From Rhodopirellula halodulae (GTDB lineage: Bacteria > Planctomycetota > Planctomycetia > Pirellulales > Pirellulaceae), in NCBI RefSeq assembly GCF_020966775.1, contig NZ_JAJKFV010000002.1, positions 558,001 to 622,000 of the forward strand: DNA of 64,000 bases, in the 5' to 3' direction. Position 1 is the stretch's first letter, and the number at the start of each line of letters is the position of its first letter. Under the pieces are notes generated by a model. That model was given only the letters and a program-made list of their open reading frames with translations. It did not search any database and had not been told where the DNA came from. Positions 17,126 through 19,482 of the stretch are shown here, piece after piece. Position numbers and translations under genes: made by a program.

Positions 17126-17473
17126 CTATTCCGCTTGAACTTTGAACCGCAGATCATTGATCTTGGCCTGCGGGTGTTCCTTGGCCAGCTTTTTCAAAAT
17201 CCGTCGTTTCTGAAACGTCAGCTCCTGCATCACGACGCTGTCAACGGCGTAGATCATCAACACGCCTCGCTGCAGTTTGCCGACTCGGAACGAATTCGCG
17301 ATTTGTGAATCGACGGCGGATTGGATGGTGCTGGTGAGTGCCGATTCGGCACCCACGGAAGCGTACCCGCGGCGGCTCATCAATTGAGAGATCAGACTGC
17401 CAATCGCCCTCGGGCCGCTGGATTTCTCCTCGACCAATTTCGGAGGCGGCTGGTTGGGGCGACGCGGTCCCAT
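17126..17473 (-). CDS. DUF721 / DciA-like protein
   Basis: A 115-residue basic protein with a flexible proline-rich start (PRRPNQPPPKL) and a compact domain (about 22-113) containing AIGSLISQLMSRRGY, then GKLQRGVLMIYAVDSVVMQEL and a closing KINDLRFKV strand, which fits the DUF721 family. DciA proteins of this family load or support the replicative helicase in bacteria without DnaC or DnaI. Here it lies 5 bases behind dnaN and in the same direction, a setting that fits a replication role. The assignment rests on this short pattern and context, so helicase loading remains inferred. Confidence 0.75.
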   Translation of the reverse strand: MGPRRPNQPPPKLVEEKSSGPRAIGSLISQLMSRRGYASVGAESALTSTIQSAVDSQIANSFRVGKLQRGVLMIYAVDSVVMQELTFQKRRILKKLAKEHPQAKINDLRFKVQAE

Positions 17474-17478
17474 GACGA

Positions 17479-18597
17479 TCAGCGATCGCGAGCCATGGGC
17501 ATGATCACGTAGGCGTACCCGTCATCGGTTTGCAACAGAGCCGGTGATTTCGCGGATTCAATTTCCATCACCACGGTCGACTCGTTGTCCATCACTTTGC
17601 AGAAGTCCGCCAGGTAACGATGGTCCATCGTCAGCGTGATTGACTCGCCGTCGTAAGCGATCGGAAGCTCAATTTGGGACTCTCCCAGATCCGCTGTTTT
17701 GGCTTCCAGCTTCAGCGTGCCATCGGCGAAAGTGAAGTCCACCCCGCGGCTGTCCAAGTCGGTCACAATCGCGGCTTGGCGAAGGGCGGCGAACAGAGGT
17801 CCGACCGTCACGTCGATCTGAACCGCGTTCTCTCGTTGGGGCAAAACCTGACGCCAGTTTGGATAGCGACCCTCGACCAGACGGCTGCTGATGACGGCTC
17901 GTGGCGTGCGAATCAAAAGATCGTTTCCGCGGGAAGCCACCTCGACGTGATCGTCCTTTTCACTGAGAGCCCGCTCGATCAATCCGATGGCTCGCGTGGG
18001 CACAATCGTGGTCATCCCGCTGGTCGCGTGACCGCCGACGGACTCACCGGTGCCTTCCATTCGTGCCAGCCGTCGACCGTCCGTTCCGACCGCGATGACG
18101 GAGGATTCTTCCATCTCCAACAACACGCCGCCGAGTGCGTAACGGCTGCTTTCCGAGTCGGTCGCGAAGACGGTTCGGCGGAGCATTTCGCGGAAGGTGC
18201 GAGTGCTGATTTGGTGGTACTTCGACTCGTCGAATTCGTGGACGCTGGGGAACTCATCCGGGTTGTTTCCCGGCAGTCGAAACTTGCTCCGGCTGCCCGA
18301 AATTTTGATGCCCGCCTCATCGGTTTCGATCGTGATCGTTTCGTCGTTGCTCTCGCGCAGAATCGGTCCGGTTCGCAGGACGGGCAGCAGGGCGGTGCCC
18401 TCGGTTTCGACCTCGATCCCTTCGGTCACGTCCAACCGAATTCCCACCTCTTGGTCCGTCGCCATCAGCGTGATCTTGTCACCCGCCGCGGTGACTTTGA
18501 CGTTCTGCAAAATCTCCTTCGGCGACCGACTCGGAGCGATCGATGCAGCGAGGACGAAAGCGTTGGCGAGGATGTCTCGTTGGCAGGTGATCTTCAT
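17479..18597 (-). CDS. dnaN: DNA polymerase III sliding clamp (beta subunit)
   Basis: A 372-residue beta clamp, the ring that tethers DNA polymerase III to DNA. Three clamp domains are visible: domain 1 begins MKITCQRDILANAFVLAASI and includes KVTAAGDKITLMATDQEVGI; domain 2 has YHQISTRTFREMLRRTVFAT and GTDGRRLARMEG; domain 3 has NAVQIDVTVGPLFAALRQA and ends with the partner-binding C-terminus YAYVIMPMARDR (xxPMxR type). Length is typical. It is transcribed away from a 504-base region carrying DnaA boxes and is followed by the dciA-like gene. Confidence 0.96.
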   Translation of the reverse strand: MKITCQRDILANAFVLAASIAPSRSPKEILQNVKVTAAGDKITLMATDQEVGIRLDVTEGIEVETEGTALLPVLRTGPILRESNDETITIETDEAGIKISGSRSKFRLPGNNPDEFPSVHEFDESKYHQISTRTFREMLRRTVFATDSESSRYALGGVLLEMEESSVIAVGTDGRRLARMEGTGESVGGHATSGMTTIVPTRAIGLIERALSEKDDHVEVASRGNDLLIRTPRAVISSRLVEGRYPNWRQVLPQRENAVQIDVTVGPLFAALRQAAIVTDLDSRGVDFTFADGTLKLEAKTADLGESQIELPIAYDGESITLTMDHRYLADFCKVMDNESTVVMEIESAKSPALLQTDDGYAYVIMPMARDR

Positions 18598-18861
18598 CGG
18601 TGCGACTGGAAAAAGAGACCGGGCTGGAACGCCGACGTCCGCCGGCCGAGCCCGGATGACTTGGCTTCAAACGAGTCGTTCAGGGCGGTCCAAGTTGTAA
18701 CGCGATCGATGCGATCTGGCATCCCCCGCAACGTCCGCATCGAGGGCTTCCGCGAACACCCTGCAAAACCGGGTGATGACTAGGAAGGTCTTTCCCAGGA
18801 TGTTTGCTATCAAAAAGAACTAATTTAACTACCGTCGTCGTCGTAATGCGTGGACGACGAG

Positions 18862-18870
18862 TGTCTCAAA
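18862..18870 (+). repeat. TGTCTCAAA iteron-like motif, copy 1
   Basis: First copy of the 9-base motif TGTCTCAAA, outside the main dyad on the dnaN side. The other copies are at 18951, 18962, 19022, 19032 and 19043. Confidence 0.6.
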
Positions 18871-18928
18871 GCATTGTTCGAAACGCGATTGGATCGGCAA
18901 ATCACGTAGAAAACAGGCACGATAGCGA

Positions 18929-18943
18929 TGTGGATAACCTGTC
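18929..18943 (-). promoter_or_regulatory. DnaA box in left arm of dyad
   Basis: TGTGGATAA (18929-18937) is the exact complement of the classical DnaA box TTATCCACA. It is continued by CCTGTC to give a 15-base arm matched perfectly, in inverted orientation, at 19059-19073. Confidence 0.8.
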
Positions 18944-18950
18944 GTTTGGA

Positions 18951-18970
18951 TGTCTCAAATCTGTCTGAAA
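18951..18970 (+). repeat. Left tandem pair of TGTCT iteron-like motifs
   Basis: TGTCTCAAA (18951-18959) and TGTCTGAAA (18962-18970) start 11 bases apart, one helical turn. The 20-base block is repeated in inverted form at 19032-19051 with 17 of 20 bases equal. Confidence 0.7.
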
Positions 18971-19021
18971 TCGGAGGTACTTCGAACACGGACCGACAGT
19001 GGCTTGTCCGAGGCTGTCAAA

Positions 19022-19051
19022 AGTCAGACATTTTGAGACAGACTTCAGACA
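19022..19051 (-). repeat. Right cluster of three TGTCT iteron-like motifs on the minus strand
   Basis: Read on the minus strand: TGTCTGAAG (19043-19051), TGTCTCAAA (19032-19040) and TGTCTGACT (19022-19030), spaced 11 and 10 bases. The first two mirror the left pair exactly about position 19001. Confidence 0.7.
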
Positions 19052-19058
19052 GTGAAAA

Positions 19059-19073
19059 GACAGGTTATCCACA
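19059..19073 (+). promoter_or_regulatory. DnaA box in right arm of dyad
   Basis: TTATCCACA (19065-19073) is a perfect DnaA box, preceded by GACAGG. The whole 15-base arm is the reverse complement of 18929-18943. It ends 28 bases before the cutA start. Confidence 0.8.
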
Positions 19074-19101
19074 GGTGTTTTCGGGGTGAAAACGAGGGTT
19101 C

Positions 19102-19482
19102 ATGAGCGCCAAAAAAGAATTTGAAAACGTTCCAAAAAAGTCCGTTTCCAGTCCGTCCAAAGACCCGTCGTTGATGGTTTTGTGGACGACGGTGGAATCG
19201 AACGAGCAAGCGGAGATGCTTGCACGAGGCTTGTTGGAGCAGCGATTGGCGGCGTGCGTGCAGATCGATTCACCGATCACCAGCCACTACGTTTGGAAGG
19301 GTCAAACGTGTTCGGAAACGGAGCTACGAGTGGTGGTCAAAACGCTGGCCTCGAAGGTCGACGAAGCGATGACGTGGCTGGCTGAGAACCATCCCTACGA
19401 CGAGCCTCAGTTGGTCGTGTTGCCGGTCGAGAAAGCGTCGTCAGGCTACGCGAGATGGGTCGCCGAATCGACTTCGAAGTAG
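19102..19482 (+). CDS. cutA: CutA-like divalent-cation tolerance protein
   Basis: A 126-residue CutA1 family protein, usually a trimer of ferredoxin-like subunits linked to copper or other metal tolerance. After a 20-residue polar extension rich in Lys and Ser comes LMVLWTTVESNEQAEMLARG, LLEQRLAACVQIDSPITSHY, then VWKGQTCSETELRVVVKT, LAENHPYDEPQLVVLPVE and SGYARWV, covering the family from end to end. The gene points away from dnaN across the candidate origin. Its molecular role in bacteria is not well understood. Confidence 0.92.
   Translation: MSAKKEFENVPKKSVSSPSKDPSLMVLWTTVESNEQAEMLARGLLEQRLAACVQIDSPITSHYVWKGQTCSETELRVVVKTLASKVDEAMTWLAENHPYDEPQLVVLPVEKASSGYARWVAESTSK

Follow-up and report, generated by a model that had tools for sequence, protein, structure and literature searches.

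The DNA analysed here is a 64,000-nucleotide window of Rhodopirellula halodulae, corresponding to positions 558001-622000 of contig C2 in a genome of 6.6 Mb; the DnaN encoded in it shares 99% identity with R. europaea 6C DnaN. Within this window the genes dnaN (minus strand) and cutA (plus strand) flank an intergenic inverted repeat, which is the subject of this report and, as argued below, very probably the chromosomal replication origin. The arms of this dyad (18929-18970 and 19032-19073) are 42 nt each, pair at 35 of 42 positions and enclose a loop of 61 around the centre at 19001. In a window-wide comparison of inverted repeats with 42-nt arms and loops of 40-89, it ranked first with 35/42, followed by a runner-up with 28/42, while ten shuffles yielded 25-26. 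It includes exact 15-nt arms, TGTGGATAACCTGTC and GACAGGTTATCCACA, likewise centred on 19001, which contain the two DnaA boxes. Each arm opens with a perfect DnaA box, the two boxes being 136 bp apart from start to start. Reading inward from the box, TGTC follows at +11, +22 and +33 in both arms, with an extra copy at +43 in the right arm. The features are as follows.

17126-17473, minus strand: dciA, helicase operator, downstream of dnaN (PF05258)
17479-18597, minus strand: dnaN, sliding clamp (Pfam; TIGR00663)
18929-19073, no strand: whole dyad, centre 19001, 145 bp
18929-18937, plus strand: outer DnaA box of the left arm (TGTGGATAA reading inward), exact match; the pair is kept upstream of dnaN in relatives
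18940-18947, plus strand: lattice site +11 of the left arm (TGTC core)
18951-18958, plus strand: lattice site +22 of the left arm (TGTCTCAA)
18962-18969, plus strand: lattice site +33 of the left arm (TGTCTGAA)
19023-19030, minus strand: lattice site +43 of the right arm (TGTCTGAC), without a left-arm counterpart
19033-19040, minus strand: lattice site +33 of the right arm (TGTCTCAA)
19044-19051, minus strand: lattice site +22 of the right arm (TGTCTGAA)
19055-19062, minus strand: lattice site +11 of the right arm (TGTC core)
19065-19073, minus strand: outer DnaA box of the right arm (TGTGGATAA reading inward), exact match
19102-19482, plus strand: cutA-like gene (PF03091)

A preliminary description of this DNA, made from the letters alone, had placed two perfect inverted DnaA boxes within exact 15-base arms about position 19001, and this proved correct, with arms that in fact extend to 42 nt. 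The 11-base steps that it reported were also found, together with a point that it lacked, namely that the count starts at the DnaA box itself. Exact TGTCTSAA sites lie at 18951-18958 and 18962-18969 on the plus strand and at 19044-19051 and 19033-19040 on the minus strand; they are mirrored to the base as had been claimed, the earlier intervals for the two mirror partners having been one base too long. One copy does lie outside the dyad (18862-18869), which brings the exact copies to five and not to the six counted before, and the nearest additional candidate is TGTCTGAC at 19023-19030 (minus strand). Moreover, the earlier judgement that such order is unlikely by chance holds for the arrangement, though TGTCTSAA by itself occurs in the window about as often as expected (5 found versus 4.55 expected). 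In the 6.6-Mb genome, pairs of TGTCTSAA separated by 1-5 bases occur only at the two mirror places of the dyad. The improbable feature is the arrangement of the sites, not the motif count.

Conservation of the box pair upstream of dnaN

To describe the dyad in relatives, 85 dnaN upstream regions were used, comprising R. halodulae, 19 named loci and 65 of the 70 members drawn from the class Planctomycetia, many of which are closely related to one another. Four genomes of family f7 (G315, G330, G336 and G345) are missing from this set and were looked at later with another score. A strict search for box pairs, with at most one mismatch per box and a spacing of 130-140 bp, was positive in 44/85 regions versus 2 of 1,700 shuffles. 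A relaxed search, with base 4 unscored, at most two mismatches in all and a spacing of 132-138 bp, detected the head-to-head DnaA-box pair in 51/85 regions; G339 and G341, which have lattice pairs at 123-124 bp, were scored as misses. The distance between the boxes is 136 bp in Rhodopirellula, 137 bp in other named Pirellulaceae ('Rubripirellula-like', a label given in this analysis), 133-135 bp in family f8, 133 bp in named Gemmata/Gemmataceae loci and mostly 135 bp in family f6, where two regions have 134 bp. Conservation of the dyad upstream of dnaN in related genomes, a check proposed in the preliminary description, was thus seen from Pirellulaceae to f8 and the named Gemmata/Gemmataceae loci. 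Furthermore, the dyad is kept where the upstream gene differs, this being the short dnaA in many relatives and cutA in R. halodulae. Outside the class, the box pair was found in 2 of 14 dnaN regions (G167 and G132) at a spacing of 124 bp. A search of the phylum with an exact-box pattern matched 19/294 genomes versus 3 for the reversed control pattern, some of the matches being chance-like.

An 11-bp lattice that starts at the DnaA box

The 44 origins from the strict search, in the selection of which lattice positions played no part, provided 88 arms. The core YGKY was present at +11 in 79 of these arms, at +22 in 59, at +33 in 37, at +43 in 27 and at +44 in 13, while the other offsets from 10 to 59 had a mean of 2.7 and a highest count of 16, at +32. 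In 23 representatives (46 arms), chosen by hand to thin near-copies, YGKY was found 40 times at +11 and 29 times at +22. Their sum of 69 compares with 4.5 in shuffled sequences (standard deviation 2.1, maximum 12, 2,000 shuffles).

The motif that occupies the lattice differs by clade. It is TGTC or TGTCTGAA-like in Rhodopirellula and TGGCGCGC in most of family f8; TGGCGCGC is also found in part in G089, G195 and G246, which belong to another genus of Pirellulaceae, and both kinds of motif occur together in G329. Across the clades the geometry of the lattice is constant and its motif variable, the families sharing the YGKY core and the spacing. Comparison of the sequences therefore strongly supports a widespread 11-bp lattice within the class, and the second site type proposed in the preliminary description is to that extent upheld and enlarged. 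Because the motif differs by clade while the YGKY spacing persists, TGTCTSAA is best described, on these comparisons, as the variant that one clade has of a site found widely across the class.

Two DnaA paralogs with different recognition residues

R. halodulae has two matches to the DnaA model TIGR00362. The match at C14:139292-140947 begins at model position 4, and that at C2:9933-10751 begins at position 165. The C2 copy (L060) is a short DnaA without the N-terminal part (DnaA-S), and the C14 copy is the long form (DnaA-L), to which an N-terminal part was assigned because its match starts at 4 and not at 165. In R. halodulae the gene for DnaA-S is located ∼566 kb from the dyad, and cutA occupies its place beside the dyad. 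Throughout the phylum, exactly two DnaA matches (E ≤ 1e-15) were found in 105/118 genomes, one in 12 and three in 1; in the class sample, 10 of the 70 genomes had a single match. Among the class genomes that have two DnaA matches, 41 of 60 carry the short dnaA ∼1 kb or less upstream of dnaN. A quick tree built from 87 rows (28 of 65 short, 31 of 82 long and 28 of 30 from other classes, with six long branches flagged) also set the short and long forms apart as two groups, with support of 99 for the long and 91 for the short form.

According to the excerpted text of PMC7561715, citing Fujikawa 2003, the base-contacting residues of E. coli DnaA include R399, P423, D433, H434, T435 and H439. We counted these residues with one row per genome and sequence, excluding L062, a foreign-looking DnaA of G303, and not using position 423, which is not reliably alignable. 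Assignment of the paralogs was by gene and place, independent of the recognition residues. The short form has R399 in 65/65, D433 in 50/65 and H439 in 60/65 copies, while the long form has D433 in 0/82, H439 in 0/82 and R399 in 55/82. Of 15 genomes of other classes, 14 have one D433 copy (with H439 in 11 of these and Tyr in 3); 13 further pattern-readable copies have neither D433 nor H439, and three copies were not readable by pattern. G066 has two DnaA copies (L295 and L298) with identical domain IV, both with Lys433, so that neither has D433, and no dnaN match at E ≤ 1e-15 was found in this genome.

Two further observations concern the dnaA genes. In the 400 bp upstream, dnaA-S of R. halodulae has one TGTGGATAA at -52 and dnaA-L one TGTGGAAAA at -286; a check for autoregulation found no 11-bp TGTC pair in the 400 bp upstream of either gene. 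G119 has 16 DnaA-model matches, and contigs G119:C1 and G172:C1 carry repeated open reading frames of 278-316 aa with equal score and a weak match to the ATPase part of DnaA, which may be accessory ATPases of an insertion sequence that has multiplied.

The residue at position 433 was compared with base 4 of the sites. With D433 in the short DnaA, 74/74 outer boxes had G at base 4, a position that had been left unscored. With N433 in the short DnaA, there were 8 G, 8 C and 2 T, and with T433 2 C of 2. At the +11 and +22 sites, base 4 was C or T in 182/204, and the corresponding counts by residue 433 of the long DnaA were 84/92 for S, 55/56 for T, 27/36 for N, 4/4 for R and 12/16 where this residue was unread. 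Since the long DnaA never has D433 and base 4 of the lattice is mostly C/T, a single rule, by which Asp433 goes with G and any other residue with C/T, would cover the outer boxes and the lattice alike; it is an association. Two other explanations were rejected. A tight code from the whole recognition helix fails on G192 and G195, which have the same helix but different 3′ halves of their sites, and R399 does not explain the changed half-site, as DnaA-L of f8 has R399 yet its sites are GC-rich.

GC skew around the locus

G234, a relative with one contig of 6.96 Mb, has the site at 2.673 Mb; its GC skew was zero or negative in the stretch before it (1 bp to 2.65 Mb), positive after it (2.68 to 6.0 Mb) and negative again at 6.5 Mb. 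On the 8.58-Mb contig of CA13, where the site is at 4.905 Mb, samples up to 4.70 Mb were negative. Skew was then close to zero at 4.88 Mb, weakly positive at 4.91 Mb and 5.1 Mb, and positive between 5.5 and 7.5 Mb apart from a near-zero value at 7.0 Mb; at 8.0 Mb it was slightly negative. Both courses are based on 20 samples each (of 20 kb in G234); the samples nearest the site are individually weak, and the sign change can be located to within tens of kb in G234 but to ∼0.2 Mb or more in CA13. For R. halodulae, skew was computed on contig C2 only (722 kb of 6.6 Mb), of which 665 kb were covered. It is positive to the right of the site and mostly negative to its left, with a positive stretch at 400-480 kb. 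Its course descends to 399 kb, climbs to ∼500 kb, descends again to 558 kb and from there climbs across the site and past it. The skew minimum, which the preliminary description proposed as a check, therefore finds partial agreement: skew switches sign around the locus in both relatives, and the minimum of C2 is off the site. The skew of C2:400001-480000 is reversed relative to its surroundings, as after an inversion; an inverted segment could be responsible for the course on C2, which does not serve as main evidence here.

Conserved elements between the dyad and dnaN

Seven Rhodopirellula-like regions were aligned, and three conserved blocks follow one another there: GACACTC, which is the outside TGTCTSAA copy read on the other strand, then CATTACGACGACGACG, and then an A/T-rich stretch ending in TTTGATAGCAAA.

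18859-18870, plus strand: outside TGTC site, GAGTGTC block, kept in 7/7 aligned regions including R. halodulae
18833-18848, minus strand: CATTACGACGACGACG block next to the A/T-rich patch, identical in 6/7 aligned regions, with one change in the seventh
∼18803-18832, minus strand: A/T-rich patch with TTTGATAGCAAA at its end, a candidate element for unwinding, with small changes among the aligned regions

The adjacent A/T-rich patch of the preliminary description was thus recovered, at ∼18803-18832, and on its sequence it is a candidate unwinding site. The (GAC)n block together with the A/T-rich stretch also occurs in L025 and L029, the latter with TGATAGCAAA; the block is present in close relatives and scarcely beyond. 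The (GAC)n run at 18833-18848 beside the patch is kept in L018-L022, L025, L029 and L032, and it resembles DnaA-trios in period, not in consensus. Separately, TGATA[GTC]C was found near dnaN in 27/80 regions against a background of 0.15 per 700 bp. Its position varies, and it is not claimed as a class-wide element.

Interpretation

Two perfect DnaA boxes beside dnaN, and their recurrence in 51/85 regions, are what would be expected of an oriC. On the basis of conservation, gene context and relatives, and not relying on the skew of R. halodulae, we consider it very probable that the dyad is the chromosomal origin. This agrees with the preliminary description, whose candidate origin is supported by the conservation of the dyad upstream of dnaN and by the skew sign changes in two relatives.

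Taken as a whole, the reading we favour, and regard as probable, is an oriC like R1/R4 of E. coli with canonical DnaA-S at the outer boxes and DnaA-L on the lattice. It builds on what was observed here, namely the architecture and how it is conserved, the presence of two paralogs and the residues that distinguish them; which protein binds which site, how filaments grow, where the DNA unwinds and what DciA does are proposals of the model. In the manner of the E. coli R1/R4 scaffold, DnaA on the two inward-facing canonical boxes of the dyad would nucleate two cooperative filaments that converge over the 11-bp-spaced sites. DnaA-S, which is short, lacks the N-terminal part and has canonical box-reading residues, would anchor at the outer boxes, and DnaA-L, with its N-terminal part and altered recognition helix, would fill the lattice sites, where base 4 is C/T and not the G of the box. 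The filaments would open the neighbouring A/T-rich patch (18803-18832), and the helicase would be loaded with DciA, the product of the adjacent gene. In E. coli, N-terminal domain I of DnaA binds the helicase (excerpted text of PMC10316083). Two DnaA proteins with different box-reading residues, as such an origin calls for, were indeed found. That the lattice is read by the second DnaA is, taken by itself, slightly better than an even proposition. A mixed complex with one paralog at the canonical boxes and a filament of the retargeted paralog on the 11-bp lattice, both being needed for initiation, is a proposition for which the chances appear evenly divided. The second initiator of the preliminary description is therefore plausible, with the DnaA paralog of altered recognition helix as candidate, whereas its binding to TGTCT sites is something we only infer.

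Family f7, a single clade, bears on this model from both sides. DnaA-S was not found in 8/18 f7 genomes, and H434 is replaced by P, K or A in 9/9 f7 short copies read (L327-L335; RDP, RDK or RDA for RDH), so that DnaA-S of f7 seems to be an initiator paralog in decay. The 132-138-bp dyad was present in 1/16 regions of f7, f69 and f70 (f69 and f70 being single members) versus 50/69 elsewhere. This pattern is in keeping with DnaA-S and the dyad acting together. No lattice was found near the relocated f7 DnaA-S genes in the nine regions read. The best pairs in later-examined f7 genomes are at 128 bp in G330 and 115 bp in G336, and the region of G345 has 598 bases only.

Several findings weigh against the favoured model. 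Within f7, TGTGGATAA-like pairs 200-204 bp apart persist in six regions, and four regions (G336, G342, G316 and G334) have pairs at 115-137 bp with two to four lattice cores. These four score 2-3, and among random pieces a score of 2 was reached in 2/400 and none was higher. The f7 architecture is reduced, not cleanly absent, and the Asn433 DnaA-L of f7 may also read canonical boxes. More generally, 34/85 regions have no 132-138-bp pair in the relaxed search, the YGKY core and its offsets were picked after looking at the arms, and the N-terminal DnaA domain of Pfam was recognised in neither DnaA of R. halodulae. With regard to residue 433, the non-Asp433 short DnaAs are all from clade f6 and related genomes are not independent; where DnaA-S was unread, base 4 of the outer box was G in 5, C in 2 and T in 1; and G192 and G195 combine an identical DnaA-L recognition helix with differing 3′ halves of the lattice sites. 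Finally, the skew minima on C2 are at 557,857 (local, 19 kb off) and 399,204 (lowest, 178 kb off), with the dyad at 577,001.

The strongest competitor, which we consider unlikely though by no means negligible, is an ordinary oriC, where canonical DnaA-S alone would bind the boxes and, as weak sites, the lattice, and DnaA-L would have another job such as regulation. It draws on E. coli, where anchors of the same inward orientation are 180 bp apart and where, in the excerpted text of PMC6727663, the weak sites deviate from the box, need recruitment and are spaced by 2 bp; with 9-mers, this gives an 11-bp step. However, the lattice sites are strongly patterned per clade (TGTC or TGGCGCGC), beyond the needs of degenerate weak sites. 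The Asp433 of DnaA-S goes with G in 74/74 outer boxes, yet base 4 of the lattice is C/T in 182/204 sites, and DnaA-L, having lost both box-reading residues, is usually present too. Much less probable is an origin whose TGTCT sites bind an unrelated regulator, such as an initiation repressor. In its favour are the restriction of the TGTCTSAA consensus to one clade and the single copy found outside the dyad; but the sites keep the 11-bp register and orientation of the DnaA box from Pirellulaceae to f8 despite their change in sequence, and a separate protein would not require the register of the DnaA box. Least credible of all is a regulatory dyad for dnaN or cutA that is not an origin, since its place between these genes and the ability of DnaA to serve as a transcription factor are outweighed by its retention despite different upstream genes (short dnaA or cutA) and by the change of skew sign around it in two relatives.

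If the favoured two-paralog model is true, the anchor and filament roles would be genetically separable, being split between paralogs, which would be an unusual division of labour at an origin. It would also explain why most of the sampled planctomycete genomes (105/118) have kept two dnaA genes. Position 433 versus base 4 provides a directly testable residue-to-base proposal, and the architecture of the dyad a marker for finding origins in the phylum.

Comparison with known systems

In well-studied bacteria a single DnaA reads strong and weak origin sites alike. E. coli has one DnaA, versus two paralogs in planctomycetes, and Thermotoga maritima also has one. In our alignment, PDB chain 2z4r_A, which we take to be T. 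maritima DnaA, has RSH in place of the RDH of the canonical helix.

Several dnaA genes have been reported in PVC bacteria: Ca. Kuenenia has three, one of them beside dnaN at the skew origin (PMC7709395), and Waddlia has DnaA1 and DnaA3 (PMC4989314). The excerpted texts of these two reports resemble our findings in the multiplicity of dnaA; they contain nothing on origin sites or on a division of box-reading residues. Among the matches listed from the open-licence literature, in excerpted form, there was no description of planctomycete origin architecture and no link of multiple PVC dnaA genes to two site types.

The basal unwinding system, which combines DnaA boxes with DnaA-trios, has a parallel in Rhodopirellula-like regions, the trinucleotide run (GAC)n that adjoins the A/T-rich patch. 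Unlike in that system, the run mismatches the 3′-GAT-5′ trio (excerpted text of PMC8287927) and no canonical box is directly beside it. By eye, on the sequence and alignment and with no formal search for a basal unwinding system, no DnaA-trios matching the consensus were seen; the (GAC)n run is 80-95 bp from the left box.

For T. maritima DnaA, which has a different box, the strongest pairing of two direct boxes was at 2-bp spacing (excerpted text of PMC10316083). Its oriC, unlike the planctomycete dyad, has one box type.

The closest comparison is with E. coli oriC. Between its anchors there are four low-affinity sites per gap, 2 bp apart, which are filled from R1 and R4 towards the centre; these sites deviate from the box, and bound DnaA must recruit to them (excerpted text of PMC6727663). 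A distance of 2 bp between 9-mers therefore amounts to an 11-bp step. E. coli oriC differs from the dyad by its central R2 box and its IHF site (same excerpt), its anchors are 180 bp apart versus 132-138 bp in Planctomycetia, and YGKY is present at only one (+33, R4 arm) of the lattice offsets +11, +22, +33 and +43/44. In both systems, however, two inward-facing TGTGGATAA anchors flank the origin (E. coli sequence from NC_000913.3), and the dyad shares with the R1/R4 orisome the combination of inward-facing anchors with arrays of sites in 11-bp steps.
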